The notes: generated from the letters alone by a model not told the origin. Shown: positions 6,032 to 63,995, counted from the stretch's first letter. The stretch: 64,000 nt of DNA from Gemmatimonadales bacterium (GCA_019038745.1 JAHOYV010000033.1:1-64000); one strand, 5' to 3'. Numbers and translations: made by a program.

Positions 6032-8902
6032 ATGGCTATGACCTTGACCATCTTTACTGGAGCAGAAAGAAGCGGACGTCCGATCTTTGGATGGGTGTTT
6101 GCTTGTTTCCTGTTGCTGGTGGTCTGCCTGCCGGTGTCTTCCTCGGCCAAATCCGACGAGGACTTGTATCGAGGGATCGATCCCAGCGGGTTGCGTGTTA
6201 TGGATGGCTCATTCGTAATGAACGTGGGTGAAGTCCAGATTCATATCACGAATTGGGGTTTGATTGGTACCGGGCTGAATGCAAATTTTCCCTGGGGGAG
6301 TGCTCCTTCCTGCCAGTGGCCCGCCGGGTCAGGAAATGAATATCTGTGGGCGGCCGGGCTGATGGTAGGTGGCGTTGTTTTGGGCGAGCGCCTTGTTACC
6401 ACGCGAAATGAAGTTGCCCCTTTGGACAACGACGTGCAGGCCACGATTTACGAGGCAGTGGGTACCACCATCCTGCGCCCCCCGGGAAACTCCGAGGCCG
6501 GCGGCAAACGTGCGCCGTCTCCCGGCCCTGACGACGATGATGACGGCTTGATTGATGAGGAGATTCTCAACGGCGCGGACGATGACGGGGACGGGCTGAT
6601 TGATGAGGATTTTGGTCAGATCGGCAATCAGATGTTTGTCTGCACCATGTACGATAATACGCCCATGATTAAGGAACAAAACGCTGAACATAAGCCCCTG
6701 AATCTGGAAATAGTCCAGAGTACCTACCAGTGGGAGAATGATCAGGTTGATGATTTTGTCGGATTCGAGTACCAAATCACCAACGTCGGCGTAGCGGATA
6801 TCGAAAGGGTCTACATCGGTTTCAATGCTGACGCGGACATTGGTCCCAGCCAGGGTGATACTGCCGGTGACGATGCGGCCGGTTCCTGGAGAGGGGCAGT
6901 TCGCGCCTCCGACGGAAGTTTTGTTCCCGTCGAGGTCGGCTACATGTTTGATGTGGCTGAGAACGATCCCGTCGATGGATATTTCGGCATCGTGTTCCTT
7001 GGGCACGATATTGATCCTACCGGTCAGAGAGCCCCGACCAAGGTCGGCATGAGGACCTTTCAGAGCTTCCAGGGCCAAATGAGCTTTGACCAAGGCGGCG
7101 ATCCAACCAACGATGATGAACGTTATCAACTACTGAGCGCTCTGCCGGAAGAATGGGATGGAAACACAGCGGTCAACAGAGCGAACGATTTTAGATTCCT
7201 GGTTTCCGCAGGCCCGTTTGAGGTTTTGGAGAAGGATGAGACCCTGAATTTTCAGGTGGCCATAGTTATGGGTCCGGGTTTGGGATCGCCCGAGGGTGGC
7301 GAAGGGTTGCTGGCCAATTGTGCCCAGGCAGCCCAGACTTGGTACGGCATCTTCGTGAATGAGGTACCCAATATGGTCGCCCTTTCAGGGGGCGGGGAAA
7401 TCATTACCGGACATCTCGGCCGCGAGACGATGCTCTGCAAGGAAGATTTCCATGGATCGGATGCATGGGAATTTTTTGCTCCCGATTTTATGGACACCTC
7501 GTGTGTCGACGCCGAGTGGCTCATGGCCAGGCGGATAACGCCTGAAGATGAATTCGAATTCACTTTCCCTGATGGTGAATCGAAGACCTGCGCCATGTTC
7601 AATATGGACAACTGCTTTGAATGTATTCGCCAACTGGGTCCGGCCAGCCAGTTTGGGATCGCCTGCGGCCCTCTGGATTTCGAAGAGGGGAATTGGGAGT
7701 GCAACAATCCAAATGCGGCTTCTTTCTCCGGTTGCACGGGAATCGATGGTGAGGAAACGCAAATCCATTGGCTGGTTGGGATGGCACCTCCTCCTCCGTT
7801 GGGACTTCGCATGTGGCCCACTGATGGTCGGGTTCACATATTTTGGGACGACAACAGTGAGAACGTGAAGGATATTCGGTTACAAACGATCGATTTCGAG
7901 TCCTACCGTATCTGGCGGGCGGACAACTGGGATCGACCTTTTGGAAGCTCAATTGTAAATGGTCCGGAGAGTGATCTCTGGAAGCTCATTGCCGAATACG
8001 ACCTGATCAACAGTTTCGTGTCCTACCGTGATTTAATGGATGCCGATGGCAACCCCTACGTCCATCTGGACACCATCCCCTTGGGGATGAACACCGGCCT
8101 GGGTCCGATTGTCTATACGCCCCGTTGTCTTGCCGACACACGGTACGCGGGTTTGCAGGACGCCATGCAGGTAATTGTGGATTCTGATTTGAACAATGAT
8201 CTGCGGGAAAGGCCTGCCATTCGCCTTACCGATGGTTCCATTAATCCCAAATACCGGGGTTTGGTTTACTGGGAGAGCTACCCAACCGTGCTGGACACTT
8301 TTTTCTGGGTCGCCAGCAGGGAAGCGGACCTGGTCAAGCGCATTCTTCCCAAGCGCTCCACCCGATTTTATGAGTATGTGGATACCGATGTTCATAACGG
8401 CTTCCTCTATTTCTATTCGGTAACCGCTTCCGACCACGGATTGCTGCCCCCGGAGAATTCTTACGATATCGATTTGCCCGTCGGGTCAGGTCTGATCGGT
8501 GACCCAGGATCCTCCTTTACTTATACGGTTCCAGGCACGAGAGCACAGACCGTTGAGGAAAGGGCCCTGTCAGGGGCGAATATTTACGTGTTCCCGAACC
8601 CGGCGACCAGGGCAGCTCTGGAAGAGTTTCAGCAAATGGACCCCAATGGCGACGACCCTACGGGTGTCCGGGTTAGTTTTTCAAATTTGCCGATGGCCCA
8701 TAACACCATAAAAATCTTTACGGTCAGTGGCGATTTAGTACAGACGATAGTGCATGACGGCACTGCAGGAGTAGGGCATACGAGTTGGAATCTGATGAGT
8801 CGCAGCGGCCAGGAAATCGTGAGTGGAATCTATCTCTACTCCGTTCAAACCGCCGATAGCGGGTTCGAGGATTTCATTGGAAAGTTTGTTGTAATCAGGT
8901 AG
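6032..8902 (+). CDS. Large secreted protein with Asp-rich repeats and C-terminal FlgD-like/T9SS type A sorting-like domain
   Basis: N-terminal signal; DDDDDGLIDEEILNGADDDGDGLIDEDFG; C-terminal NIYVFPNPATRAA...ISGIYLYSVQTADSG...GKFVVIR pattern. Confidence 0.82.
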   Translation: MAMTLTIFTGAERSGRPIFGWVFACFLLLVVCLPVSSSAKSDEDLYRGIDPSGLRVMDGSFVMNVGEVQIHITNWGLIGTGLNANFPWGSAPSCQWPAGSGNEYLWAAGLMVGGVVLGERLVTTRNEVAPLDNDVQATIYEAVGTTILRPPGNSEAGGKRAPSPGPDDDDDGLIDEEILNGADDDGDGLIDEDFGQIGNQMFVCTMYDNTPMIKEQNAEHKPLNLEIVQSTYQWENDQVDDFVGFEYQITNVGVADIERVYIGFNADADIGPSQGDTAGDDAAGSWRGAVRASDGSFVPVEVGYMFDVAENDPVDGYFGIVFLGHDIDPTGQRAPTKVGMRTFQSFQGQMSFDQGGDPTNDDERYQLLSALPEEWDGNTAVNRANDFRFLVSAGPFEVLEKDETLNFQVAIVMGPGLGSPEGGEGLLANCAQAAQTWYGIFVNEVPNMVALSGGGEIITGHLGRETMLCKEDFHGSDAWEFFAPDFMDTSCVDAEWLMARRITPEDEFEFTFPDGESKTCAMFNMDNCFECIRQLGPASQFGIACGPLDFEEGNWECNNPNAASFSGCTGIDGEETQIHWLVGMAPPPPLGLRMWPTDGRVHIFWDDNSENVKDIRLQTIDFESYRIWRADNWDRPFGSSIVNGPESDLWKLIAEYDLINSFVSYRDLMDADGNPYVHLDTIPLGMNTGLGPIVYTPRCLADTRYAGLQDAMQVIVDSDLNNDLRERPAIRLTDGSINPKYRGLVYWESYPTVLDTFFWVASREADLVKRILPKRSTRFYEYVDTDVHNGFLYFYSVTASDHGLLPPENSYDIDLPVGSGLIGDPGSSFTYTVPGTRAQTVEERALSGANIYVFPNPATRAALEEFQQMDPNGDDPTGVRVSFSNLPMAHNTIKIFTVSGDLVQTIVHDGTAGVGHTSWNLMSRSGQEIVSGIYLYSVQTADSGFEDFIGKFVVIR

Positions 8903-13336: not shown

Positions 13337-13349
13337 AAAGGAGGCGGAG

Positions 13350-13772
13350 ATGGATCTAGGACGCACGACGAATAAAAGTACTTTCATCCCCACCTCTTCC
13401 ATGGGGGATATCGCTTTTCTTTTGCTGATCTTCTTCATGGTCACGACGATTTTCCGTGAGGAAACGGGGCTGCCTGTTGAGCTGCCGAGGGCTGAGGCGG
13501 GGGAAGAGGTAAATCGGGAATTGGTGTCGAACATCTACATTAACCGCGTGGGACAGATTTCCATCGACGACCGGTTGGTGCAGACCAAGCACATCCCCGA
13601 TATCATCGGCACCAAGATTTCCGACAATCCACAACTGATCGTGGCCTTCAAGACGGACACCTACACCGATTACGGCGTGGTCAGCGATGTCATGGAGGAG
13701 CTGAAGGAAGTCAACGCCGTGCGTGTCTTCTTCAACAACGACATAGAATCCATGCCTGGCCAGAAGTTCTAG
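13350..13772 (+). CDS. ExbD/TolR family biopolymer transport protein (2)
   Basis: TSSMGDIAFLLLIFFMVTTIFREETGLPVELP. Confidence 0.9.
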   Translation: MDLGRTTNKSTFIPTSSMGDIAFLLLIFFMVTTIFREETGLPVELPRAEAGEEVNRELVSNIYINRVGQISIDDRLVQTKHIPDIIGTKISDNPQLIVAFKTDTYTDYGVVSDVMEELKEVNAVRVFFNNDIESMPGQKF

Positions 13773-13779
13773 GAGCGTC

Positions 13780-14433
13780 ATGAGCACGATACCCATGAAC
13801 AACGTCATTCAAATGTCTGCCAATGACGAGTTCAAGGCTAAATACAACAAGTATCTGCGTTGGTCAGCCCTGGTTGCAGTCATTTTGACGCTGATCGGCT
13901 TTATGGTCTCGCCGAACTACGTTCCAAACCCGTACAAGCTGCGGCAGGATGAGTTCGAGGTAGTGGACCTTGATGATCAGGAAATCATCGAGTTGCCCCC
14001 GCCGCCCCAGGAAGCCCCGCCACCGCCCAAGGTGATCGAGGCCGCCCCGGACGACGAGGTTACCGAGGACGTGGAAATTGCCGATACCCTGATGGATCTC
14101 GATTCCGCCATCAGTAGCAGTATGCCCACTTATGATCTCGGTGGAGACGCGGGATTCGTCGCTTCCTCCGAGAATCCCAAGATCATCAACTGGGCCAAAC
14201 CCAAGTATCCGGAGATCGCCCGCAAGGCCCTGATGGAGGGGACGGTCATCGTCAAGGTTCTGGTCGGGCCTGACGGCTCGGTCCTGGATGCCCAGCTTAT
14301 GCAGGGGGTCAACCCCTTGCTGAACGCATCGGCCCTGGATGCGGCTCGCAGGTGCAAGTTCATTCCAGGCAAACAGCGTAATATCCCGGTTCAGGCCTGG
14401 ATGGCGCTGCCTTTCAACTTCCGCCTGAACTGA
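13780..14433 (+). CDS. TonB family energy transducer
   Basis: Single TM, Pro/Glu-rich linker (ELPPPPQEAPPPPKV), C-terminal TonB domain PKYPEIARKALMEGTVIVKVLVGPDGSVLDA. Confidence 0.9.
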   Translation: MSTIPMNNVIQMSANDEFKAKYNKYLRWSALVAVILTLIGFMVSPNYVPNPYKLRQDEFEVVDLDDQEIIELPPPPQEAPPPPKVIEAAPDDEVTEDVEIADTLMDLDSAISSSMPTYDLGGDAGFVASSENPKIINWAKPKYPEIARKALMEGTVIVKVLVGPDGSVLDAQLMQGVNPLLNASALDAARRCKFIPGKQRNIPVQAWMALPFNFRLN

Positions 14434-14736: not shown

Positions 14737-16119
14737 ATGCTGGATTTCAGTCAGGTTTGTTACCGTGGTCCCTTGGCCAGGATTCTTGTTTCGTTGAGCC
14801 TTATTTCTCTCTTGTCAGGGGCTACGGTTGTTTCGGCTCCCGCTCAAGGGGGGGCCGGCGCCCCTATCAAGTCACTGGACGATTGTCTTCGGTTGGCCCT
14901 GGATGACAGTCCGAGGCTACAGATCTCCGACGAGCGTCGGGATATTGCTTCCCAGGGGATAAAATCGGCGTATGGTGCTTTTCTGCCAGGCCTTGGGCTC
15001 TCCAGGAATTGGAATAATTTCCAGCGCAAAGATTTCAATATGCCGGTTGCGGGTGAAACCCTTGTTCAGGAACGGGCCACATCCAAGAGCTGGAGTGCCC
15101 GGGTGGATCTGAATGTTTTCTCGGGTTTTTCCAAGTTCAGCCAAGTCAAATCGGCAAAAAATGATCTGCGGGCCGCTGAGGCTACCCATGGATATACGAG
15201 AGAGCTGGTTGCCGAAGTCGTAATCACCGCCTACTTCAACCTTTTGCGATACAAGGAGCTGCTTCAGGTTGCCGTCGAAACCCGAGATCAGGCAGCCAAG
15301 GAATTGGAGCGGACCGAGACGTATTTCCGCCTGGGCAGTTCCGCAAAAAGCGATGTCCTGCAACAGAGGGTCAGGCTTGAGAATACCAAGCTTGATCTGG
15401 TGATCGCGGACAACAATGTTAAAATGGCCTTTGCAGACTTGGCGTTTGCCATGAACCAACCTTTGGCCGAGACCTTCACTGTGGACGATTCCGAGTTGTC
15501 TACCGATTACTCGGTTAATGAGTTGGATGCTTTATATAAGACGGCCTTGGAGACTCGTCTGGACCTTCTCAGCAGTGGTTATTCTGCTGAGGCCCGACGC
15601 AAGGATGTCGGGACGGCTCGGGCCGGGTTGTATCCGAGTGTCAGCGCTTTTGGAAACTACAGTCGGACCGACAACAGCTCAGATGAAAGGTGGTCCTTAA
15701 CCCAGTCCTCATCGGCGAACAGTTTTGGATACGCCATATCCTGGAATGTTTTTGATCGTATGCAGACTTTGACAAATGTTTCCCGCGCCAAAGCCAACGC
15801 CCGAATTGCGAAGTATGAACTGGAGCAATCCCGCATGAACGTCCAGGTGGAGATCAGACAACTTCACAATTCCCAGCTTGAAGCCCGTGAGCGGGCCAAT
15901 GTGAGCCGGGAAACCATTCTGCAGAGCGCCGAGGAACTGCGCTTGGCCCAGGAGCGTTTCCGGGTTGGAGCGGGTACGACTCTTGATGTGATCGTGGCCC
16001 AGGTGAATCTGGCCAGTTCCCGGGCCCAGGAGGTTCAGGCCAAGTGTGATTTCCTGATCGCCAAGGCCAAGATGAATCGTGCGGTGGGTCGTCTGAACCC
16101 CGGCTTGGATGGGCGATGA
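14737..16119 (+). CDS. TolC family outer-membrane efflux protein
   Basis: Signal peptide; duplicated OEP repeat (SLDDCLRLALDDSPRLQISDERRDIA; LRLAQERFRVGAGTTLDVIVAQVNL). Confidence 0.9.
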   Translation: MLDFSQVCYRGPLARILVSLSLISLLSGATVVSAPAQGGAGAPIKSLDDCLRLALDDSPRLQISDERRDIASQGIKSAYGAFLPGLGLSRNWNNFQRKDFNMPVAGETLVQERATSKSWSARVDLNVFSGFSKFSQVKSAKNDLRAAEATHGYTRELVAEVVITAYFNLLRYKELLQVAVETRDQAAKELERTETYFRLGSSAKSDVLQQRVRLENTKLDLVIADNNVKMAFADLAFAMNQPLAETFTVDDSELSTDYSVNELDALYKTALETRLDLLSSGYSAEARRKDVGTARAGLYPSVSAFGNYSRTDNSSDERWSLTQSSSANSFGYAISWNVFDRMQTLTNVSRAKANARIAKYELEQSRMNVQVEIRQLHNSQLEARERANVSRETILQSAEELRLAQERFRVGAGTTLDVIVAQVNLASSRAQEVQAKCDFLIAKAKMNRAVGRLNPGLDGR

Positions 16120-16844
16120 TGATAAGCCCCAGGCCGAAGGAACCAATCCCGGGACCCATTATTGAGGTTCGCGATCTGCACCGTACCTACGAGGTGGGTA
16201 CCGAGAAGGTATTGGCTGTCCAGGGCGTGGACTTGGTCCTACAGCCGGGAGAGTACCTGGCAATCATGGGTTCCAGCGGTTCGGGAAAATCCACCCTGAT
16301 GAATATGCTGGGCTGTCTGGATACTCCAACGAGTGGGTCCTATCGCCTGGCTGGAACCGAGGTCAGCACCTTCAGCGATGACCAACTGGCCGAGATCCGC
16401 AACCGGGAGATCGGCTTTGTCTTTCAGACATTTAACCTGCTTCCGCGCAGCACCGCCGCCCAGAACGTGGAACTGCCACTTGTTTACGCTGGGATTCGGT
16501 CGGGCCAGAGGTCGCGAAGGGTGGCCGCCGCCTTGGAGTCGGTTGGACTGAAGGACAGGGCTGTTCATCGGCCCAATGAGCTGTCCGGAGGGCAGTGCCA
16601 GCGCGTTGCCATTGCTCGGGCCCTGGTCAACGACCCCTCACTGGTCCTGGCTGACGAACCTACCGGCAACCTTGATTCGGTGACCAGCAACGACATTATG
16701 AAGATTTTGGGAGGGCTGAACGATCAGGGACATACTGTAATCATCGTTACCCATGAATCTGATATAGCTGCCCAGTGTAAACGAGTCATTACTCTCAGTG
16801 ACGGGCGTATTATTCGAGACGAGTTAAACGCCAAGCCTTCCTGA
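16116..16844 (+). CDS. MacB/LolD-type ABC transporter ATP-binding protein
   Basis: [50 protein letters not shown]. Confidence 0.93.
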
Positions 16845-51851: not shown

Positions 51852-51867
51852 GTCAACTCCGGTTGAC
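51852..51867. promoter_or_regulatory. Perfect inverted repeat upstream of the S8 protease gene
   Basis: GTCAAC-TCCG-GTTGAC. Confidence 0.35.
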
Positions 51868-51919
51868 GTCTTCCATTCGGATGTTGGCTGGTCATCAACA
51901 AGCACAGCGAGGATCCGAA

Positions 51920-54900
51920 ATGAGCGTTTCCCGTACAGAACGCGTTCGACACATGGCCCAGGCTGCACCCCACCTGCGCTTGGCCCCTCGCGCTGCCGCA
52001 TTCTGTCGGTTTGGATCCCCTCCGGTCACCCGGTTCGCTCCGGTTTTGCTGGTGCTCGTGGGGATCCTGCCGGCGGTCTTTTTTCCTGCTTTTGTATTTG
52101 CTTCCCCTTTCGAAGAACTGGATTCGACTTTTCCCAAACCTGTCCCATTGGTAGATGCCGACGCCAACGGTGTGGAGGATCTCCTGGATCAGTGGCTGAA
52201 TGGTTCCAGGAGTTGGGAAGAGCTGCGGAGTACTGCCGGGGCGCCCAGTTTTATCCAGGCTTCGCCCGCCCCAAAATCGATTCCGGCTTCAGGTCCGTGG
52301 GCCGAAGGAGGGCTGCGGGTAATTCGTCTGGGTTCGGTTTCCGGGGATCTGCACCGGGCCCGGGAACGAGCAGCGGGAATCGGTCGTTGCGATCTTATCC
52401 ATTCCCTGGATCGTTTCGGAGGAGTGGCCGTCCTTGGGGTGGACCAACGGGGCTTGGCTGCGTTCCTGAAGGAAACTCCAGGGGGCAGGATTCTGCTCGA
52501 TCGGGAAGGAGTCCCGGCTCTCAATACGAGTCGCACACTTTCGGGAGCGGACCAGGCCGCGGCAGGACATTGGACAGTGGGGGAGGATTGGTCCTCTTCC
52601 GTGGCCATTCTGGATTCGGGATGTGACACGGCCCACGGGGACCTGGGGGATTATCTGGATGATGATCTGGACGGCCCTGCTCCTGCGGTTGGTGACGCCA
52701 ACGACTGGTGGCCCGCCGATTCTGGCTGGCCGACCGCCCAGCGTTACAAGGTCGTCGGCTGGAAGGATGTAACGAACGATTTTCCTTCTGCCGTCGGGCC
52801 GTGGGACTACCACCACCATGGAACCGCTTTGGCCTCGGTGGTGGCCGGCAGTGGCTTGGTGGATCCGGCCTACCGAGGGATGGCGCCGATGGCGCATCTT
52901 ACCGTAGTAAAATTTTATGATTTCGATGAAACATGGCACACTTGGGCCGGGGATTTCCTGGCAGCCTGTGACTGGACTCTGGAAAATCTGGATTTGTACC
53001 GCATCCGAACCGTCCTGATGGCCGTCAATTGGGAAGTGGATGCCGGAATTACCGAGGCAATGGCCGCCTTTGTGGATCAGGGTGTCTTGCCGGTGGCGGC
53101 CATGGGAAACTTTGGCCCTGAATCCGGCTCTGGAGGTTTTCCCGCTTCATTAGCCGATGTGCTTACCGTTGGTGCGGTGGATGAAACAGGCGCCGTTTCC
53201 AATTTCAGTGGACGTGGTTTGATGGGGACGGATAAGCCTGATCTGGTTGCGCCGGGGGGTGGTCTTCTCCAAAGCGGCGGTCGCATCACGGTCTGCGACA
53301 ATGAACCAAACGATTCCTACAGCGGGCGACAGGGAACCAGTCTGGCGGCGGCCCACGCAGCGGGAGCTCTTACCCTGTTGAACGAGGCCCTACGAAAAAG
53401 CGGGTTGGAGATGCCTCGGGACCGGGCAAGTACCCTGACCCGCAAGGCCCTCCTTAAAGCAACCTGCGCCCGGGTGGATTTCGCCGAAAACGCTTTGGGT
53501 ACCGGACACGAGGTCCTGCCTAGTCAGGTGGATCCGGACACTATCCGGGGCTGGGGACTGCTGCGTGTCGATGCTGCGATTGAAGCCGCCTTGAAGCCAA
53601 TTCCTCCCGGTGGTAATGATCAGGATTTCATCTCCAGTGATTGGTCTCGTCTGGTGGTGGCGAGGAGGTTGATTCTGCGGGAAGGAATCAATTACGAAAT
53701 CGAAGTGACCCCCTCCAGTGGCCTGGACGTTGTTCTCGAGGTTGTGGATCCTCGCTGGCTGGACAAATTCGACTGGATGGACAATTGCATTCGAGTGGAT
53801 GCAAAGGGATCGGGGTTGGCGGAGAAAACCTACTTCAGACCCAATTCGAACCAGTTCCTGGTTTTGGCTGTTAAGAGGGTTTCCGGTTTCGGCTCGGTCA
53901 CGTTGAAAGTCCAGGAAACCGACGAATTGGAAGTGTCGCGTGGTGTTACTTCGTTGCCGGGCCACATTTCCGGACCCCCCAACTACGGAACCCTGGCCGG
54001 TCAGAGTGTGCCCTCAATGGTGGTTTCCTCGCTTGTAAGTGTGGATCCCCAGGCCAGGGCAGTGAACGTTCTGGACCTGGCCGGACGAGGACTTCCCGAC
54101 TGGCCGGTCTTTTTGTTTCCTCATATTTCGAGTCTGGGCGGACTTACCCAACCCCTGGTCTGGGATTTGGACGGAATCAGTGGTGATGAGATCGTGGTGG
54201 CTTCCGCATTCGGCTCCGTCTATTTCTTCGAAGGGAATGGGCAGTATGAGGAAGTGCCCCTGACCTTCAACCTGGAGCTTACCGCCCCGGTCGGCTGGCT
54301 GGCCTGGGATGGACGTCCACTGGTGACGACGGTAGATAGGGGCGGGACGGTCCATTCCTTTACCATGGGATCAGAACTTGAATGGAGTCGGGACCTGGCA
54401 AGTCAATTTCCACTACCGCCGGCCGTGGGACAGTTGATCGGAGGGGGAAGCGAGGAGTTGGTGGTCTCCTTCGCCGGGGGACTGATCGCTGCGTTGGATT
54501 ATAATGGCAGCATGCTGGCCGGCTGGCCCGTGGATCTGGGTGTGGAATTGAGTTCTCCTCCAGTCCTTTGCGACATGGATGGCGATGGTTTCCATGAAGT
54601 GATTCAGCCTGTTCTGGATCAGGCGACAGGGACGTTGTCTACCATTGTTCTGAGGGGCAATGGACAACCAGGGCCCGGGAATGGAGCTGTCATCCAGCCT
54701 GCGGGTGGGGGAAATTGGGTGGCCGCATCTTTTCCGGTGGTTGCGGGGGGTTTTGTAGAGGGTGATTTGAGGGTCACCTTGGCCGGCTTGCATGACAACG
54801 GCGGGGTGGGTGAGGACGCTGTTTGGTCTATGGGATTAGGCCAGCTCCTGACCGATGGGAATTCAAGTTACAGACGATTACCTGGTTTCGCCCTGAGAGG

Positions 54901-55615
54901 AACCGCAAGTGCGGGCGTGTTGACCCTGGACCAGGGGTTCCTGTGCCCACCGATGTGTTGGAACTCCCTGGAGGGCACCGGCTCGGACCCCCATCTGTTG
55001 GCCCATCTTCGCTGGCGGGAAGTTCTCTATGGTTTGACTTCGGTGCCGGGCGCAATGACCGGTTGGCTGGGGAATACCGCCAATGACCGACCCTTGTCCG
55101 GTCGGCAGGATCTGATCCCGGGGGGGGCGGCCACGGCCCCGGTCTCGGCCATGGGCTCAATGCTGGTCCCCTTGGCAGGGGAGGTCCATCTACGGGTGGA
55201 GGTGCTCGATAAAACAGTATCCTTTTCGCCGGTTCCAATGGGTCGAGGCCAGGAGCCGGTCTGGTCATCCGCCCGGGGAAATTCGCGAAACTCGGGGGCT
55301 CAGCCCTTGAGGCCGGATATGTCGTCCGTGGCCCTTTCGGTCGTCGCCGGGCATCGTATTCATGCCGCCCCCAATCCTGCGGCGAGCCGTTTGCAGCTAA
55401 CTTGGAGCGGGTCCGTAAATCCGGAAGGGATCGTCTGGGAGATATTCGACTTGCGTGGCCATCTTGTTCGTTTTCTGCGTTCCGATGTATTTTCCGGAAC
55501 CGTGATGTGGGATGCCACCGATAGGGCTGGGCGTCCGGTGGCGGCTGGAACCTACCTCGTACGGGCTCGTTCCGGGAGCGCCGTGGCTTCAACGAGAATT
55601 CTTATGCAGCGGTAA
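51920..55615 (+). CDS. S8 (subtilisin-like) serine protease with beta-propeller-like region and C-terminal FlgD-like/T9SS-type sorting domain
   Basis: Asp VAILDSGCDTAHGD, His HHHGTALASVVAG, Asn AAMGNFGPESG, Ser QGTSLAAAHAAGA; C-terminal AAPNPAASRLQLTW...GTYLVRARSG. Confidence 0.9.
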   Translation: MSVSRTERVRHMAQAAPHLRLAPRAAAFCRFGSPPVTRFAPVLLVLVGILPAVFFPAFVFASPFEELDSTFPKPVPLVDADANGVEDLLDQWLNGSRSWEELRSTAGAPSFIQASPAPKSIPASGPWAEGGLRVIRLGSVSGDLHRARERAAGIGRCDLIHSLDRFGGVAVLGVDQRGLAAFLKETPGGRILLDREGVPALNTSRTLSGADQAAAGHWTVGEDWSSSVAILDSGCDTAHGDLGDYLDDDLDGPAPAVGDANDWWPADSGWPTAQRYKVVGWKDVTNDFPSAVGPWDYHHHGTALASVVAGSGLVDPAYRGMAPMAHLTVVKFYDFDETWHTWAGDFLAACDWTLENLDLYRIRTVLMAVNWEVDAGITEAMAAFVDQGVLPVAAMGNFGPESGSGGFPASLADVLTVGAVDETGAVSNFSGRGLMGTDKPDLVAPGGGLLQSGGRITVCDNEPNDSYSGRQGTSLAAAHAAGALTLLNEALRKSGLEMPRDRASTLTRKALLKATCARVDFAENALGTGHEVLPSQVDPDTIRGWGLLRVDAAIEAALKPIPPGGNDQDFISSDWSRLVVARRLILREGINYEIEVTPSSGLDVVLEVVDPRWLDKFDWMDNCIRVDAKGSGLAEKTYFRPNSNQFLVLAVKRVSGFGSVTLKVQETDELEVSRGVTSLPGHISGPPNYGTLAGQSVPSMVVSSLVSVDPQARAVNVLDLAGRGLPDWPVFLFPHISSLGGLTQPLVWDLDGISGDEIVVASAFGSVYFFEGNGQYEEVPLTFNLELTAPVGWLAWDGRPLVTTVDRGGTVHSFTMGSELEWSRDLASQFPLPPAVGQLIGGGSEELVVSFAGGLIAALDYNGSMLAGWPVDLGVELSSPPVLCDMDGDGFHEVIQPVLDQATGTLSTIVLRGNGQPGPGNGAVIQPAGGGNWVAASFPVVAGGFVEGDLRVTLAGLHDNGGVGEDAVWSMGLGQLLTDGNSSYRRLPGFALRGTASAGVLTLDQGFLCPPMCWNSLEGTGSDPHLLAHLRWREVLYGLTSVPGAMTGWLGNTANDRPLSGRQDLIPGGAATAPVSAMGSMLVPLAGEVHLRVEVLDKTVSFSPVPMGRGQEPVWSSARGNSRNSGAQPLRPDMSSVALSVVAGHRIHAAPNPAASRLQLTWSGSVNPEGIVWEIFDLRGHLVRFLRSDVFSGTVMWDATDRAGRPVAAGTYLVRARSGSAVASTRILMQR

Positions 55616-55676: not shown

Positions 55677-58600
55677 ATGGAAAATTCCGGCAATGCAGAG
55701 AAAAGCTACTGGGACCTGATAGTCAGGTCTGAACAAGCCCTGACCCAGGGTGATTTTCCACTTGCCGAGAAGTTGTTCCACCAGGCCCACCTCATGCGTG
55801 AGGAATCTCCAGGTCGGGTTTTCATTTCTGAAAAAATTACTGACGGTCTGGTTGGAATGTGGGGTCGAGCTCGCCATGACAAAGGGAAACCCAAATTCCC
55901 CACGGGTCGCTGGAATAAGAGGTGTGGAAAATTCCGAGAGGAGTTTACGGGCCAGGCCGAGAGGGTGGTCCGGGAGGGTGTACGGCTGGCCGAGTTGCGG
56001 CCCGAGGATGACGCCGAGGCCAATCAACCGATTTTGGAGGCCGCCCTTTTCCTTGTCTCCAGGAGTCGTCTTTTTCGGGAAGAGCCTGCTTCCTCGGTAC
56101 CGTTGCTCATGGGCCTGTTTCGAACCGCCAGGCGTACGGGCCGGCCTTTCGATGTCCAGCTCGTACGCCACGATATTCCCTTGACCGAGGAAGACAGACT
56201 CTGGTTGGCCAGGCGTGGTGGGGAGTTGCTCGAAACCTTCGTGGAGGATGGGCATCTGGCACCGGGCAGCAAGGCCGCCGAGGAGTGGGCGGCAGTATTC
56301 CTGCAACTCCTTCAGGTCCGGTATTTCGGATCCACCAGTCGTCTGGAAGAAGAGCGCTCTTGGTTGGAAGCGGTTACGGCCGACAGGTTTCTTGACCGGG
56401 GCGCCGCCGCCGTGGCTCTCTATCGGGAGTATCTCCAGGGTAATCCCGAACCTGGAACCCGGGCGGACGAGGCCCGTGTGCGGCTGTTGGAGATGCTGGG
56501 AAATTGCGACCGCGACTATTTTCCGATTCCCCTGTATCCAGAGGCTATGGGTGCCATGCAATCGGCCGGCCTCTCTGCCGGCAATGAAGTGGCCGGTCGT
56601 TACGAGGCTGCTCTGGCCCGCATCGAGTACCGTCGTCCTGATTCCTGTCATGATCCTGCTACTTCCCTGGCCTGGGCCACGCTTTCTTTGGAGTCCGACG
56701 GTTCGGTGGGAGTTGTTTTTTGGTGGGGCGAAGAACCACGGGATGTGGGCTTTTGGCACCCAGGCGATGATCCGGAGCCCCTGGAGGAATTCCTGGCTCC
56801 CTGTGGGGAACGATTAGTGCTGGCCGACCCCGGGGTCTTGGCCGCCTTGGGGGAAGTCTGGACCGGGGAAATGGTCTGCTGGACGGCAAGGGATTTTGCA
56901 ACCGCTCTGATAAACGGGCTCCCGAGGGGGATTCCACAGGAAACGCCCCCCTTCCTGGAAATCGCCTTGAACGAGGCAGGGCCCTGGCGTGGGGGGTGGA
57001 AACCCTCGTTGGGTAATCCCATTCTGCAACCTCCGCGGACGTCTGCCATCCTGGAATCCTGGGGGGGTGGTCCGGTATCCGAAGCTCTTTTGGCAGGTCT
57101 GATTTGGTTGGGGGTCCGATCACGTATCGCTCGTGTCGATCCCACACTGCGGGCCGGTATCGGGGAACTGGCCCGGCGGGGAGACGAGGCAGCCGGTTTT
57201 CTTTACGAATTCCTCGTGCTGGATGGGGAAGCAAGCCGGGCTGTGGATCAGACCTTCGAGCCCTGGACTTTGTCACTGCTCTGGACTCGTCCGGATCCCG
57301 TAACCAAGGTTCGATCCCATGAGGTCGGACAAGGCTCCGCGTGGACAGATTCCTCCGCCCGACCTGATCTGGGGCGCAACGATCTGGCCATTGTAAGCAC
57401 CGGGGATCCTGCGGCGGTGCTGGCGGCCTGGAATGACGGGCAATCTAAATGGCGCATAGTTTTGGACCGGGCCGACCGGCTGGATGTACTGGCGGGTATG
57501 GATGCGGCGGTGATAGGTCCTAGTACGGTGATACCGCCCGGAGGGACGGTTCATTCCCTGGAGGGTGCTCTCCAATTACTTGAATCCATGTTGGGCTTCA
57601 CGGATCGTCCCACCGGAGCGGTCGATGGACTTTTGCCTCTATTCCACTGGCGTCGCCTGGTGGAGACGCACAACGGGGATCTGCTGGATTTCCTTTCGGC
57701 TGATCCCCAAACCGCCTCTGAGATACCCTTGTTCAAACGGTACGTTGAGTGGGTGGCCGATGTGCCCCGGGAGGAACCCAGCCTGGGCGAGGATTCGAGC
57801 CGGGATTCCTGGGCTGGACAGTTTAGTCAACGCGTTCGCAAATCGGGTTTGGTAGTTGGAACCGCAAATCTTTTGGATTTCGATTCCGACCGGTTGAACA
57901 ACCTCTGGGGGGTTTTCGAAGGTAGTGGCGCCTCTTGGGTTTGGTTGGATTCCGCCGCGATTCACTCTTCTCTTCTGGCCCTGGGGACCCTGGACATTCC
58001 TTCACTGCATGGGATGCTCCACCAACGCGGGCGGCGTCACTTGTCCTTGTTGACCGGGGCGGTTTGGCATCGGCAGGATGTGGAAGAATGGTTGAGCTCG
58101 TATCTGCAGATATATGGCGACCCCTATTGTCTGGCCATGACCGACTGCCGTGTGCCCACAATACGATTGGTTGCCGAAGGCTTTGCTCCTGATTCCCTGG
58201 TCCACCGCCGGGAGTCACTACTGGGTACCGTCGCCCGTATCGAAGGAGTATTCGCGGCGGCTGGTGGCGGCACTGTTCTGCTGCCCGGCCGAGGGCTTCC
58301 CGGCGAGTTCTGGTCACTGGTTGCCAATGCAGAAATTGATTTGGCAAGGGAGGGATGGTCCTTCCTGGCCTCTTCAGAGATTCATAGTCCCCTTGCGGCA
58401 AGCCTGGACGTTTCTCCCGGATCGGGAATCCTCGCCGTGCCTGTCTTGGCCTCCCTGGAAGACTGGGATTGGCCACAGGCTACCGAGGGATCACCCCAAG
58501 TCTGGGCCCAGGCTGATCGCGACCGGCGTGTTTACCGGGATCGTTTGCGAAGAGCATGCAGTCTGGAAATCGCCGGTCTGCTGGCTGGCCCCTGGGAGAC

Positions 58601-61600
58601 GGTGGAAATCCTGGATGCGAGATGGCAACGTCTTTTCCCTGCCGATGAAGCCTCCCGCACATTCGACCAACCCCGAATTGGTCACCCCGACTCGGGTCCT
58701 ATTCCTGCGCGCCTGCTTTCACTCGTGGATTCCTGGCTCGATACCCGTCCTGGGAACAGCCCAATCGTGGGGAAGCCGGATAATGTCCCGCCTACCGGCA
58801 TTCGATTCGTCCAGGAGGATCCAGCCGAAACTTGGGACAGTCTTCAGACTTGGTTGGTCGGGTCCTGGGAATGGGGAGATTCGGGAAGCCGGGTGCTGGT
58901 CGTCTCCAACAGTGTTCCGCCTTCGGCTGCGGTGTTGGTGGCAAAAGTCGGGGGCTCCGGGATTTCGGTCTGGCCTCCCTTTGAACCGGATCAGGTTCCG
59001 GGTCCGGTACTCTGGTGTCGTCCCGAAGATTTTTCGGACTCCACTCTGGGCAATACACTCGCAGAATTTCCTCCCCAGGTGGTTTTGGCCTGGGACTTGG
59101 CCAGTTGGTTGCCGGGGGCTGAGAATGAAGCTCTTGATGAGGCCCTGGCTCTGCGACGGATCCTCGACACCGGTTCGGCCTCGGTTTATCTAGCGGGTAG
59201 TTGTCTGAGCCCGGCCTGGCTTCAGTTCCTGGGCGCAGTCTGTGGTCCGGGATTCCATTCATCTCAACCTCCCGGAGCGTTTGCTTCTTCCGGGTCCGGT
59301 TCCGAACTTGGTCCGGCAGGAGAAACCACTGCCGAGCCAGTCGGCCGAAGGGTTCCGAATTGCCTGGATTGCGGGGAGGCCGAAGTGCCGGCGGCTGTGA
59401 CCGATCGTTTGCGACGCCTGCTCTCCAGGATAAGACCCATTTTGTCTTCCGGACCTGTTTTGGTTTCTGATCAAAAAGGGGCCGAAGCCACCGGGACGGG
59501 GCCGAGTGAAGATCGTCTGCTTTCCCTGGATTGGCTGGCCCGTTTGGCGGGTTTGCGCCAGGAGGATTTGGCCGAGGGGATTCGCCTGTTGCGCTGGGCG
59601 GCCCGGCTGGCCGGTGACACCCTTTCCCTGGCCGCGACGGAATCTTTGCAGGATCAAAACCGATCCATGGGACATTGCCTGTTCATCCGACATCGGTTCG
59701 CCGAATTGGAGAACATCGTGGTGCGCCTGGAGGAGCAGGCCAGGATTCTTCTTCCACTATGGTTGGGAAATCGCGCGAGCGGTGTTCCGGTCTGGGTCGA
59801 TTTGGAATCTCCTCCGGTCGATCTGAAGAATGATGAATTAGCCCTGCTGGATAATCTCCTGCTTGGCTTGGGTGATCCGGGACTCGTCGGGTGGTGCGGT
59901 CTGGTTTACTACTGTCCCGCCGGGTCGATTCACTCCAGCCGGAGGATCATCCGGTGTGATGTTCCCGGTGAAGCCATGTTGGAAAAACTTTCCGGACAAA
60001 TCCGCCTTTTCGGCAGTCGTTTGGGTGATGTGATGTCCTCCGCCGTTGAGACGGGACAGGGCTTCCTGGTGGAAACGGGATTGACCGATCTTCGGGACGA
60101 GGAGAGAGAATTCCTGGCCCTGGGATCCGCCCTGGGCTTCTGGACCTGGTCCGGGCCGTCCTGCAGGAGGGCGGTTTACATGGTGGACCTGTTGACCCTT
60201 GCCGACAGTCCCACGGCCCAGGGCTACGGTCCTGCCTGGGGTTTGTTTGGAGATCTGATTCGATCCAGTCTGGGGGACAATTTACCGCTTCATCTTCCGG
60301 AAAACGTTGAGCGGAAGAGATCACAGGGTTTCGGCGGACGATTGGTCGGTAGTCTACGATCCTGGTTGCCGGAGCAGGATGAACCGGAGGAACAAGACAC
60401 GGCATTCCGGAGGGTTTTAAAGCTACTGGACCAACCGGAAGGGAACTCATTCCTGGTCCTCAAGGGATTGGCCGGGTCCGGTCGTCAAGGAGCGCTTCTG
60501 CGGGCCTTGCTCTCCCACAGGACAAGTGGGCTGGATCCTTGTGAAGTGACGGTGTACTGCCCGGATACGGCCACCGCAGCAGGATTCGTGCGGGAGGCGC
60601 GGAAGCTCGGCTTGCCGGGGCCTTTGGACATCCGGATCCCGCAGGGAAGTGCAATTCCGGGAGGCCCGTCGGTCAAGGAATCATGGCTGGCCGATTCATC
60701 GCGGTCGGTCATTATCATGTGCGAGATCCAGCGCTTCGAGGCGGAAACCCGTTACCGGATCTCTCAGGCGGGCCGTGGACAGAGGTTGATTTTAACCGTT
60801 GATCCCTTTTCCTCCTCCGAGCCCTGGGAACACTTGTTCCTGACTACTCCGCGGGTCGATGACGTGGTCGAACTCGGGACTCAGGGAAAGGTCTGCCGTA
60901 GATTATGGTCCGGGGTCAGCGAACTTGTTCCTCCTGAATTGCAGGGTCATTCCGGCTCAGGCAACAGTTCTCCTGGATATCTGGTTTCGGATTATTCAGC
61001 CAATCTCGACCATTGCTTGTCCAGTATTTTTCAGGAACACCAGGAGGGCCGACTCCCTGGCAGAATCCGGTTGACCGGTTCAGTGGCCGGTGACCTGGAT
61101 TATCTGGGGACGCGGATCCGAGACAAGGGTTGGCTTTCGGTGGCGGAAAAAAGTCTGGATATCCTCGTACAGCCGGGGCCCTGTGAATTTTTGGCTGCGG
61201 CAACCGATGTGTTGGCCCGCTCGGGGGAATTGGCGCGGGCGTTTGACCCGGGACTCGAGGATGCTCCTTCACTGCTTCCAGCCCTATTGGGACCCCGTGC
61301 CGCCCAAGCCGCTTCCCGCTGGTTGGGGGAGGTGGACTTATCGGGTGATGCAATGTCTCTGACCGAATTTCTGGGCCTGATGCAAACAACTGATTGGGCC
61401 GGTACTTTTTTGGCCTATCCGGAAGCTGTTCTGCGCCTGAACCAACTCCTGGATAGTTGGGGCGGGTTCAATATGGCCAGGCTCCTGGATACACCGCTGT
61501 GGGAAGCGTGGTGGTACACCATGATGGATGATCTGGGCCACGCCGGACCTGAACGTCGCCGACCCCTGGTTGCCTTGGCGGCCACTGCGCGGCCTGCGGG

Positions 61601-61742
61601 CACCTGGTCTCCCGGCGGCGTTTACTTGTGTTTGGGGACCGAACCGGCCCGGCAACATTATCAGGTCCTTGGCCGAGTGACCGAGAGTTCATTGATCCTC
61701 TTCCAGGAGCAATCCCCTCTACCAGGGGAAAAAGACAGCTGA
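55677..61742 (+). CDS. 2021-aa protein of unknown function; C-terminal region resembles a degenerate SF1 helicase/P-loop core
   Basis: Uninterrupted ORF; TPR-like N-terminus; Walker A-like FLVLKGLAGSGRQGALLRALL, VIIMCEIQRF, QRLILTVDP, and C-terminal LGRVTESSLILFQE resembling SF1 motif VI. Confidence 0.8.
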   Translation: MENSGNAEKSYWDLIVRSEQALTQGDFPLAEKLFHQAHLMREESPGRVFISEKITDGLVGMWGRARHDKGKPKFPTGRWNKRCGKFREEFTGQAERVVREGVRLAELRPEDDAEANQPILEAALFLVSRSRLFREEPASSVPLLMGLFRTARRTGRPFDVQLVRHDIPLTEEDRLWLARRGGELLETFVEDGHLAPGSKAAEEWAAVFLQLLQVRYFGSTSRLEEERSWLEAVTADRFLDRGAAAVALYREYLQGNPEPGTRADEARVRLLEMLGNCDRDYFPIPLYPEAMGAMQSAGLSAGNEVAGRYEAALARIEYRRPDSCHDPATSLAWATLSLESDGSVGVVFWWGEEPRDVGFWHPGDDPEPLEEFLAPCGERLVLADPGVLAALGEVWTGEMVCWTARDFATALINGLPRGIPQETPPFLEIALNEAGPWRGGWKPSLGNPILQPPRTSAILESWGGGPVSEALLAGLIWLGVRSRIARVDPTLRAGIGELARRGDEAAGFLYEFLVLDGEASRAVDQTFEPWTLSLLWTRPDPVTKVRSHEVGQGSAWTDSSARPDLGRNDLAIVSTGDPAAVLAAWNDGQSKWRIVLDRADRLDVLAGMDAAVIGPSTVIPPGGTVHSLEGALQLLESMLGFTDRPTGAVDGLLPLFHWRRLVETHNGDLLDFLSADPQTASEIPLFKRYVEWVADVPREEPSLGEDSSRDSWAGQFSQRVRKSGLVVGTANLLDFDSDRLNNLWGVFEGSGASWVWLDSAAIHSSLLALGTLDIPSLHGMLHQRGRRHLSLLTGAVWHRQDVEEWLSSYLQIYGDPYCLAMTDCRVPTIRLVAEGFAPDSLVHRRESLLGTVARIEGVFAAAGGGTVLLPGRGLPGEFWSLVANAEIDLAREGWSFLASSEIHSPLAASLDVSPGSGILAVPVLASLEDWDWPQATEGSPQVWAQADRDRRVYRDRLRRACSLEIAGLLAGPWETVEILDARWQRLFPADEASRTFDQPRIGHPDSGPIPARLLSLVDSWLDTRPGNSPIVGKPDNVPPTGIRFVQEDPAETWDSLQTWLVGSWEWGDSGSRVLVVSNSVPPSAAVLVAKVGGSGISVWPPFEPDQVPGPVLWCRPEDFSDSTLGNTLAEFPPQVVLAWDLASWLPGAENEALDEALALRRILDTGSASVYLAGSCLSPAWLQFLGAVCGPGFHSSQPPGAFASSGSGSELGPAGETTAEPVGRRVPNCLDCGEAEVPAAVTDRLRRLLSRIRPILSSGPVLVSDQKGAEATGTGPSEDRLLSLDWLARLAGLRQEDLAEGIRLLRWAARLAGDTLSLAATESLQDQNRSMGHCLFIRHRFAELENIVVRLEEQARILLPLWLGNRASGVPVWVDLESPPVDLKNDELALLDNLLLGLGDPGLVGWCGLVYYCPAGSIHSSRRIIRCDVPGEAMLEKLSGQIRLFGSRLGDVMSSAVETGQGFLVETGLTDLRDEEREFLALGSALGFWTWSGPSCRRAVYMVDLLTLADSPTAQGYGPAWGLFGDLIRSSLGDNLPLHLPENVERKRSQGFGGRLVGSLRSWLPEQDEPEEQDTAFRRVLKLLDQPEGNSFLVLKGLAGSGRQGALLRALLSHRTSGLDPCEVTVYCPDTATAAGFVREARKLGLPGPLDIRIPQGSAIPGGPSVKESWLADSSRSVIIMCEIQRFEAETRYRISQAGRGQRLILTVDPFSSSEPWEHLFLTTPRVDDVVELGTQGKVCRRLWSGVSELVPPELQGHSGSGNSSPGYLVSDYSANLDHCLSSIFQEHQEGRLPGRIRLTGSVAGDLDYLGTRIRDKGWLSVAEKSLDILVQPGPCEFLAAATDVLARSGELARAFDPGLEDAPSLLPALLGPRAAQAASRWLGEVDLSGDAMSLTEFLGLMQTTDWAGTFLAYPEAVLRLNQLLDSWGGFNMARLLDTPLWEAWWYTMMDDLGHAGPERRRPLVALAATARPAGTWSPGGVYLCLGTEPARQHYQVLGRVTESSLILFQEQSPLPGEKDS

Positions 61743-61914: not shown

Positions 61915-63315
61915 ATGGATTTGCCCTTCGAACCATACCGCGTCAAGGTCGTGGAGAGAATCCAGCGCGTCAGCAGGGAGGAACGTGTCCGTTTCCTGCA
62001 GGAATCAGGTTACAATGTCTTCAAGATTCCGTCCGAAGCCATCTACATAGATTTGCTGACCGATAGTGGCACGAGTGCCATGAGCGACTTGCAGTGGGCT
62101 GCCATGATGAGTGGTGACGAAGCCTACGCATGCAGCAAGTCATTCGCCGATTTCGAGTCGACCATCAAGGATATATTCGGGTACAAGCACGTTATTCCAA
62201 CCCACCAGGGCCGGGCTGCCGAGGGGTTGCTTTTCGCCGTCACCCTTAAGCCGGGGTTCGTCGTTCCCAACAACATCCACTTCGACACCACACGGGCCAA
62301 TGTGGAATACCAACAGGCCATCGCCCTTGATTGCATCGGCGAAGAGGGGCTGGATCCCACCCTTGAGGCACCTTTCAAGGGTGATATGTCTCTGGACAAG
62401 TTGGCCGCGGCTTTTGAGAAATACGGAGTCGATCGCATCCCCTTCGTGATGTTGACTATCACCAACAACAGCGGGGGAGGGCAGCCGGTGTCCATGGCCA
62501 ATGCCCGAGCGGTATCCGAGTTCTGTAATGAAAAGGGTGTGCCCCTGATCTTCGATGCCTGCCGTTTCGCCGAGAATGCCTGGTTCATCCAGCAGCGCGA
62601 GGAAGGTTACGCCGACTGCTCGATCCAAGAAATCAGCCGGGAGATGTTCGCCCTCGGTGCGGGCTGCACGATGAGCGCCAAAAAGGATGCCCTGGTAAAC
62701 ATCGGGGGCTTCCTCTGCCTGAATGATGAAAAGTGGGCCCAGGAGGCGACCAACCTGTTGCTGCTTCGGGAAGGTTTTCCGACGTACGGGGGACTGGCCG
62801 GGCGCGACCTGGCCGCCGTGGCCCAGGGTTTGCGCGAAGTACTGGATGTCGACTACCTGACGTATCGCATCGGCCAAGTTGCTCGCCTGGGACAACGCCT
62901 GGATGAACTGGGTGTTCCCTACCTGCGCCCCGCCGGTGGGCATGCAATTTACGTGGATGCCAGAACGGCCCTGCCCCACATTCCACAATCCGAGTTCCCG
63001 GCCCAGGTGTTCACTGCCGCGTTGTACTTGGAAGGGGCGGTTAGAGGCGTCGAAATCGGTAGTCTCATGTTCGAGCACGAGGATCCGGATACCGGGGAGA
63101 AGGTTCATCCGGCCATGGAGTTGGTGCGACTTGCCATCCCCAGGCGGGTTTATTCCCACACCCAGCTTGAGTATGTGGCCCAGGTTTGTGCCCGCGTTAT
63201 GGAGATAGGGGAGAGTCTGCGTGGCCTGGAAATTGTTTGGGAGCCGCCAGCATTGCGTCATTTTACGGCGTCCCTGCGCCCTGCCGGCGGGGGAAAGATG
63301 GTTCAGACAAACTGA
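61915..63315 (+). CDS. tnaA: Tryptophanase/tyrosine phenol-lyase family PLP beta-eliminating lyase, predicted tryptophanase
   Basis: IYIDLLTDSGTSAMSDLQWAAMMSGDEAYA; THQGRAAEGLL; GCTMSAKKDALVNIGG PLP Lys; LRHFTASL. Confidence 0.92.
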   Translation: MDLPFEPYRVKVVERIQRVSREERVRFLQESGYNVFKIPSEAIYIDLLTDSGTSAMSDLQWAAMMSGDEAYACSKSFADFESTIKDIFGYKHVIPTHQGRAAEGLLFAVTLKPGFVVPNNIHFDTTRANVEYQQAIALDCIGEEGLDPTLEAPFKGDMSLDKLAAAFEKYGVDRIPFVMLTITNNSGGGQPVSMANARAVSEFCNEKGVPLIFDACRFAENAWFIQQREEGYADCSIQEISREMFALGAGCTMSAKKDALVNIGGFLCLNDEKWAQEATNLLLLREGFPTYGGLAGRDLAAVAQGLREVLDVDYLTYRIGQVARLGQRLDELGVPYLRPAGGHAIYVDARTALPHIPQSEFPAQVFTAALYLEGAVRGVEIGSLMFEHEDPDTGEKVHPAMELVRLAIPRRVYSHTQLEYVAQVCARVMEIGESLRGLEIVWEPPALRHFTASLRPAGGGKMVQTN

Positions 63316-63326
63316 TTGGAGGGAAT

Positions 63327-63995
63327 TTGCTAGCCCTGGATTTGAGTTGTTCGGAACTTCCCGAGGAGTTTTCGGCTCTGGTGAAAGGCCACCTGGAAGG
63401 GGCTGCAAAGGCTCTTGATCTGGCGGCGGATTTCCACCACATCGAAATCTGTGCGGATGATTTCTCCGGACAGGATGGGGCTTGGTTCAGTTTTCACTCC
63501 CAGGTTGAGGGAAATAATTCCCGCGTCGGCGCAATTCTCTATTGCTCATCCGACGTATTTTGCAAATCTCGCTTCGCCTCGCCGGGGCTTATGCCCGGAG
63601 TGGAGATTTGGGAGCAGTTGCCGGTTCAGGCTTTGGAGCCGGGATTGATTCCCGGAGAATTTTCCGGCCAGGAAGCGGACAGCTTTCTGTATCACAACCT
63701 GATTTTGGCTCAGGACCTTGTTCTGGAAAGTCTGAACATGACGGCCATCCCCAACTCCATGGCGCAAGCCTTCGCTATGGCCTGGAGCGTGACCATTGAT
63801 GGCCGGCTTTCCCGACTCGGTCTGCCTGGATATTCTCTATTGCATCGTAGGGGTCGGTTCAGCAGGTTGTTTTCATCGGTTGGGGTTCTGCTTCCCGGCC
63901 ATTGGGACATATTCCAGTCACTTTGGGACGGAGCCCTGACTGCTTCTGCGGAGGTCCTTTCCGCGAGCCGGCAATTGCCTCGACTGCGGCCATGA
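63327..63995 (+). CDS. Hypothetical protein (start uncertain, TTG 63327)
   Basis: ORF in frame to TGA 63993-63995; directly follows the lyase; TGA overlaps an ATG at 63992. Confidence 0.6.
   Translation: MLALDLSCSELPEEFSALVKGHLEGAAKALDLAADFHHIEICADDFSGQDGAWFSFHSQVEGNNSRVGAILYCSSDVFCKSRFASPGLMPGVEIWEQLPVQALEPGLIPGEFSGQEADSFLYHNLILAQDLVLESLNMTAIPNSMAQAFAMAWSVTIDGRLSRLGLPGYSLLHRRGRFSRLFSSVGVLLPGHWDIFQSLWDGALTASAEVLSASRQLPRLRP

Follow-up and report, generated by a model that had tools for sequence, protein, structure and literature searches.

What kind of protein is encoded by the largest open reading frame of a 64,000-nucleotide stretch of DNA from a Gemmatimonadales bacterium (GCA_019038745.1, JAHOYV010000033.1:1-64000; hereafter the window)? 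The gene lies at 55677-61742 on the plus strand, as do all features of the window described below, and forms a single stop-free frame of 2,021 codons. Its product has no significant match in Pfam, NCBIfam, PADLOC or the sequences of the PDB; two short matches in PHROGs (E 0.012 for the window protein and E 0.0027 for a homologue) were taken as chance. Considering the frame itself, its homologues and the ratio of nonsynonymous to synonymous substitution rates (dN/dS), we predict a giant fused pseudohelicase. The answer that we favour, with reasonable though far from full confidence, is a core nucleic-acid-binding scaffold without ATPase activity, built from fused pseudohelicases that selection has preserved although their motor motifs were lost; its function is inferred. 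The window's genome is a 3.58-Mb assembly, and most of its named relatives are entered in GenBank as Candidatus Krumholzibacteriota or Krumholzibacteriia. Two families of this uncultured phylum were used: that of the window (f1) and a second one (f5, genomes G038, G042, G046 and G050).

The origin of the C-terminal half was investigated by structure and by profile comparison. An AlphaFold2 model of residues 1025-2021 (pLDDT 83, pTM 0.84, 21 sequences) was compared with the PDB by Foldseek, and UvrD, Rep and PcrA were the best matches (E 3.6e-9 to 5e-7). Other superfamily 1 (SF1) helicases and a few superfamily 2 (SF2) enzymes (Mfd and BRR2 among them) followed further down, and a viral structure library also returned helicases. 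The C-terminal part of the f5 proteins matched a UvrD profile from Krumholzibacteriota over 424 columns (hhalign P 7.7e-10), against 0.097 for the best of 20 column shuffles and 0.41 for the reversed version. This alignment was collinear, beginning upstream of motif II and extending as far as motif VI, with motif II reading RYPTVLVEDVHALSPDQ in G042 and RFRHVLVDEFQDTNPLQ in UvrD. These results place a UvrD/SF1A-like helicase module at residues ~1588-2016 (60438-61724) and bear out an earlier note on this DNA, which had proposed from the sequence alone an SF1-derived, RecA-like C-terminus.

That note had also regarded the module as catalytically dead, and the C-terminal motifs that it quoted were found at the residues it gave. 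FLVLKGLAGSGRQGALLRALL occupies residues 1592-1612 (60450-60512) and holds the pseudo-Walker A loop GLAGSGR, in which residue 1603 is Arg instead of the invariant Lys and is followed by Gln. The pseudo-Walker B VIIMCEIQRF lies at residues 1678-1687 (60708-60737), with MCEIQR standing where UvrD has VDEFQD, and QRLILTVDP lies at residues 1702-1710. Further on come VALAATARPAG (residues 1965-1975) and LGRVTESSLILF (residues 1998-2009), and the alignment indicates eroded motifs V/VI, YLCLGTE...HYQVLGRVTESSLILFQE, at 61617-61718. The Walker A Lys of this module was absent in all members; nearly all aligned f1 rows have Arg in a G..G[ST]GR loop, and two have Ala. Because the multiple alignment misplaces f5 in this region, its loops were read by eye (VAGSGRSS in G050, RTGRTT in G038 and no recognisable P-loop in G046). 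The Asp-Glu pair of Walker B was not found either: motif II is mostly CE in f1 ((M)CEVQRF in most) and DD, ED or DG in f5. At the level of motifs, then, the module appears to be dead in every member seen. No member keeps the canonical Walker A Lys in this module or in the DinG-like module described next, and on the simplest reading of the alignments its loss would be older than the split of f1 and f5.

The N-terminal half appears to contain a second motor, of another type. The best PDB matches of its AlphaFold2 model (residues 1-1035; pLDDT 82, pTM 0.70, 25 sequences) were CasDinG (7xex, 8v44 and 7xf0), XPD (9p55) and DinG (6fws), with probabilities of 0.99-1.00, modest E values (6e-4 to 6e-3) and about 650 aligned columns. 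The RNA helicase Mss116 was also among the top matches, and tetratricopeptide repeat (TPR) proteins ranked after these. The Foldseek matches to the model point to the overall DinG/XPD fold, with two RecA domains, an Arch and an iron-sulphur (Fe-S) domain. The N-terminal part of the f5 proteins matched DinG at the corresponding segment with hhalign P 0.0092 (20 shuffles, 0.069 or worse). In this segment of f5 a Cys is followed ~65-70 residues later by C-x3-C-x(4-8)-C and then by a Q..R.RR helix. This cysteine layout is that of the DinG/XPD Fe-S domain, and 12 of 15 Krumholzibacteriota DinG proteins matched the pattern in a broad form; in f5, a script detected it in three genomes, and in G046, where the spacing is shorter, it was recognised by eye. 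On this evidence a dead DinG/XPD-like SF2 module is placed at residues ~435-1005 (56979-58691, boundaries by eye). The earlier note overlooked it, so the helicase content of the protein is larger than had been proposed.

The catalytic signatures of DinG and XPD were lost here too. Neither the Walker A GxGKS/T nor DEAH was found: by eye, the eroded DLAIVSTGDPAA, with no Lys, lies at the position of the P-loop (57381-57416), and LDSAA-H lies at that of DEAH. The pseudo-DEAH box of the window protein is WVWLDSAAIH (57936-57965), and in f1 only one invariant residue of the box is left, Asp D758. All four Fe-S cysteines were absent from all f1 members scanned, though these members keep, by eye, the exit helix (QFSQRVRKSGLV); its remnant in the window protein is GQFSQRVRKSGLVVGT (57816-57863), corresponding to C-x-x-Q-x-A-R-x-R-A-R-x-A-D-L of DinG. 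The most conserved signature of the family, HWRRLVETHNGDLLDF (57645-57692), corresponds by eye to the T-x-TGDL segment of DinG proteins, and a motif VI-like segment, LEIAGLLAGPWETVEILDARWQ, lies at 58563-58628, its DinG equivalence again judged by eye.

Two further elements precede this module. Residues ~11-320 (55707-56636) form an all-helical TPR-like solenoid in the model, matched by the TPR proteins LGN/Pins (Foldseek probability 1.00, E ~1e-2), in agreement with the TPR-like N-terminus suggested earlier. Residues ~325-415 (56649-56921) form a small alpha/beta segment of three strands, a helix and a strand according to DSSP of the model, perhaps the remnant of a nuclease-like or accessory domain.

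Between the two motors lies a third RecA-like module (residues ~1040-1545, 58794-60311), for which the alpha/beta topology, Foldseek and f5 profile comparison provide weak evidence. In the AlphaFold model of the C-terminal half, strands and helices are arranged here as in a RecA domain, and the matches of this model to Mfd and BRR2 may be relevant, the aligned range not being shown by the tool. Compared with RecQ, the f5 middle module gave a weak match (hhalign P 0.038, against 0.33 or worse for shuffles), and no catalytic motifs were seen in the module. The module is probably a dead SF2 motor, possibly RecQ-like. It includes the segment (GSRVLVVSNSVPP at residues 1070-1082 and PPQVVLAWDLASWLPG at 1132-1147) in which the earlier note saw another P-loop-like unit; the RecA-like domain is borne out by the model, and the type of motor, SF2 and perhaps RecQ-like, is less certain. 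A zinc ribbon (CxxC...CxxC) is present in the middle module of all four f5 genomes and seems eroded to CLDCGE in the window protein.

Several observations weigh against a scaffold of fused helicases. The middle module is weakly supported, and Foldseek gave low TM-scores (about 0.2-0.4), a result that we attribute to the comparison of several modules in one model with single-motor targets. The link to DinG and UvrD depends on predicted folds and on the f5 relatives: sequence profiles of f1 did not detect DinG or UvrD significantly, and comparison of the whole-family profile was too weak; the UvrD match became significant only with the less eroded f5 homologues alone. In addition, the conserved Arg of the pseudo-P-loop leaves room for nucleotide binding without hydrolysis. 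The protein might then be a nucleotide sensor, in which the C-terminal loop (G-x-x-G-S/T-G-R-H-E) binds ATP or another nucleotide as a switch. The near-constant Arg of the loop in f1, together with the Glu of the pseudo-Walker B and the Arg of motif VI, the latter two retained in most members, exceeds what would be expected for a functionless pocket and so counts for such a sensor. However, the Mg-coordinating residues, the Ser/Thr next to the Lys position and the Walker B Asp, are replaced, usually by His and Cys, even the Arg is lost in G022, G014 and G046, and the loop of the DinG module has no P-loop signature at all. We consider the sensor unlikely and retain the scaffold without ATPase activity.

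Could the loss of every catalytic motif mean instead that the gene is a decaying pseudogene, or a chance open frame? The low identity between genera would fit decay, and relaxed selection had been named beforehand as an outcome that would overturn the proposal. It was not seen. For close pairs, with amino-acid identities of 82-90% and dS of 0.5-0.9, dN/dS was 0.11-0.17 across the full length and 0.04-0.23 per segment; in distant pairs it was 0.15-0.34, well under 1, with dS high. The gene is under purifying selection. These values exclude a pseudogene, as do the intact frames of about 2,000 codons in many genomes, and we give this explanation practically no weight. The open frame described by the earlier note is conserved: most f1 genomes carry an intact full-length orthologue at ~38-53% identity, and full-length frames range from 1,975 to 2,246 codons.

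The taxonomic distribution was investigated by profile search over 80 Krumholzibacteriota genomes, with a separate second profile for f5. The giant protein was found in 36 of 38 f1 genomes and in all four f5 genomes (the G042 copy being divided between two contigs) and in none of the 38 genomes of six other families of the phylum. Among the f5 genes, that of G038 lies at L090:8961-15182 and that of G050 at L026:5677-11835. The name 'orphan', given to it earlier, holds only for the annotated libraries. A scan of all species genomes with one f1-specific pattern returned 24 f1-type loci; the range beyond Krumholzibacteriota was not thoroughly covered by it. The gene is single-copy in the window's genome, and we regard its product as a vertically inherited core protein of Krumholzibacteriota.

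The gene neighbourhood agrees in all f1 loci examined. The order is rimM-trmD-rplS-rnhB-yraN, then an S8 subtilase, leuS or nothing, then the giant gene, a beta-eliminating lyase and an uncharacterised protein of ~220 residues. Defence systems often include large proteins derived from helicases, and GajB was among the Foldseek matches of the C-terminal half, so an accessory anti-phage or mobile-element defence protein was considered. We judge it very improbable and reject a defence or mobile origin: PADLOC gave no match, searches of viral contigs, plasmids and phages gave no relative, and the gene is single-copy, near-universal in f1 and fixed at a housekeeping locus. The helicase folds might alternatively contact partner proteins only, in a structural or signalling protein that assembles through its TPR solenoid and touches no nucleic acid. 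The position of the solenoid at the N-terminus and the rapid divergence of the sequence around a conserved fold are consistent with this. On the other side, though not decisively, the upstream genes are informational (rimM, trmD, rplS, rnhB, yraN and leuS), and known pseudohelicases retain nucleic-acid binding (PMC4504706; PMC4824097). A purely structural or signalling role seems improbable to us, and nucleic-acid binding is kept in the scaffold that we favour.

Upstream neighbours were rejected as partners. The S8 subtilase of the window (51863-55615) gives way to leuS or to nothing in other lineages, and it is therefore probably not a functional partner. It is a fast-evolving protein of 1250 residues, with a weak, sub-threshold match to a FlgD-like C-terminal Ig domain, and is the neighbour in many f1 genomes. 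In loci L026, L087, L088 and L089, leuS stands directly upstream in its place, its end near or overlapping the giant frame; L088 and L089 bear the GenBank titles Gemmatimonas sp. and Latescibacterota despite their f1 locus and are probably misnamed assemblies. The uncharacterised downstream gene (63186-63995) could encode a functional partner; its homologues follow shortly downstream of the giant gene in both f1 and f5. They were located at L090:~16097-16723, L026:~13338-13850 and L091:~6717-7265; the f5 protein reads CWDVWTDGRLRQWQKPGLSQAERRR...LLPRHWxVFHxLWEG, and no Pfam or NCBIfam match to this ~220-residue protein was found.

How does the giant protein compare with known helicases and pseudohelicases? 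It shares with DinG and XPD (E. coli DinG, CasDinG and archaeal XPD) the predicted fold of residues ~435-1005 and, in f5, the four-cysteine Fe-S signature. Unlike them, it lacks the P-loop Lys and DEAH, and in f1 the Fe-S cysteines, and its DinG-like part is joined to TPR and UvrD-like modules in a fusion of about 2000 residues. DinG architectures were reviewed in 2025 without mention of TPR or RecQ, and with UvrD named only as a cooperating protein (PMC11981726). With UvrD, Rep and PcrA the protein shares the predicted C-terminal fold and the collinear f5 profile match; it differs in the change of Walker A Lys to Arg and of motif II DE to CE, in the C-terminal place of the module within a fusion, and in the 1B/2B material, which appears much reduced in f1 (the module has only ~430 residues). 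In RecC and AddB an inactivated SF1 helicase fold scans single-stranded DNA for Chi (PMC4824097), and there, too, the fold is retained and the motor motifs are gone. In contrast to these, the giant protein has two or more dead motors per chain and no adjacent AddA/RecB-type partner; Pfam revealed no RecC/AddB-style PD-(D/E)XK nuclease domain after the dead SF1 module, which is itself the C-terminus. AddAB is encoded separately in the same genome, as are members of the DinG, RecQ and UvrD families; a replacement of AddB was thus rejected, and the giant protein does not stand in for the others. PriA of D. radiodurans, which has lost its ATPase but still binds DNA, and for which there is evidence that it interacts with DnaB (PMC4504706), and Utp25 are likewise conserved helicase relatives termed pseudohelicases (PMC4504706; PMC9539457), but both are single helicase modules and recognisable members of their families.

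In the history suggested by these comparisons, a TPR solenoid would have been fused with an SF2 helicase of the DinG/XPD type, an SF1 helicase of the UvrD type and probably one more SF2 helicase. Every recognisable motor motif has been lost, the fusion and the loss of Lys being common to both families. By analogy with known pseudohelicases, the retained grooves between paired RecA domains may bind nucleic acid, either single-stranded or branched, with no movement powered by ATP, and the TPR solenoid may dock partner proteins. Such a protein would act passively, as a platform for recognition and assembly, plausibly in the maintenance of replication forks or R-loops. According to Boubakri et al. 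(2010), as cited in PMC11981726, DinG, Rep and UvrD cooperate in replication across transcription units, and fused, motor-less DinG and UvrD folds with a TPR solenoid would suit a passive platform on structures of this kind. We are less sure of the specific process than of the scaffold itself. Only tentatively do we propose the fullest version, in which three dead helicases (XPD/DinG, RecQ-like and UvrD) in one chain passively read stalled forks or R-loops and recruit partners through the TPR solenoid, as a core genome-maintenance factor of Krumholzibacteriota without counterpart elsewhere.

None of the libraries searched has a family that corresponds to two or three types of dead helicase fused in one chain and kept as a core gene, and no description of such a protein was found in the literature searched. 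Pseudohelicases have been known one at a time, as RecC, AddB, D. radiodurans PriA and Utp25. In the giant protein, helicases of different types seem to have been joined, to have become motor-less before two bacterial families diverged, and to have been kept at a housekeeping locus under strong selection. If this is true, it would show that several helicases' binding surfaces can be worth keeping together even when no motor is left, and the protein would offer a testable model of what folds of the DinG and UvrD types, and perhaps of the RecQ type, recognise without ATP.

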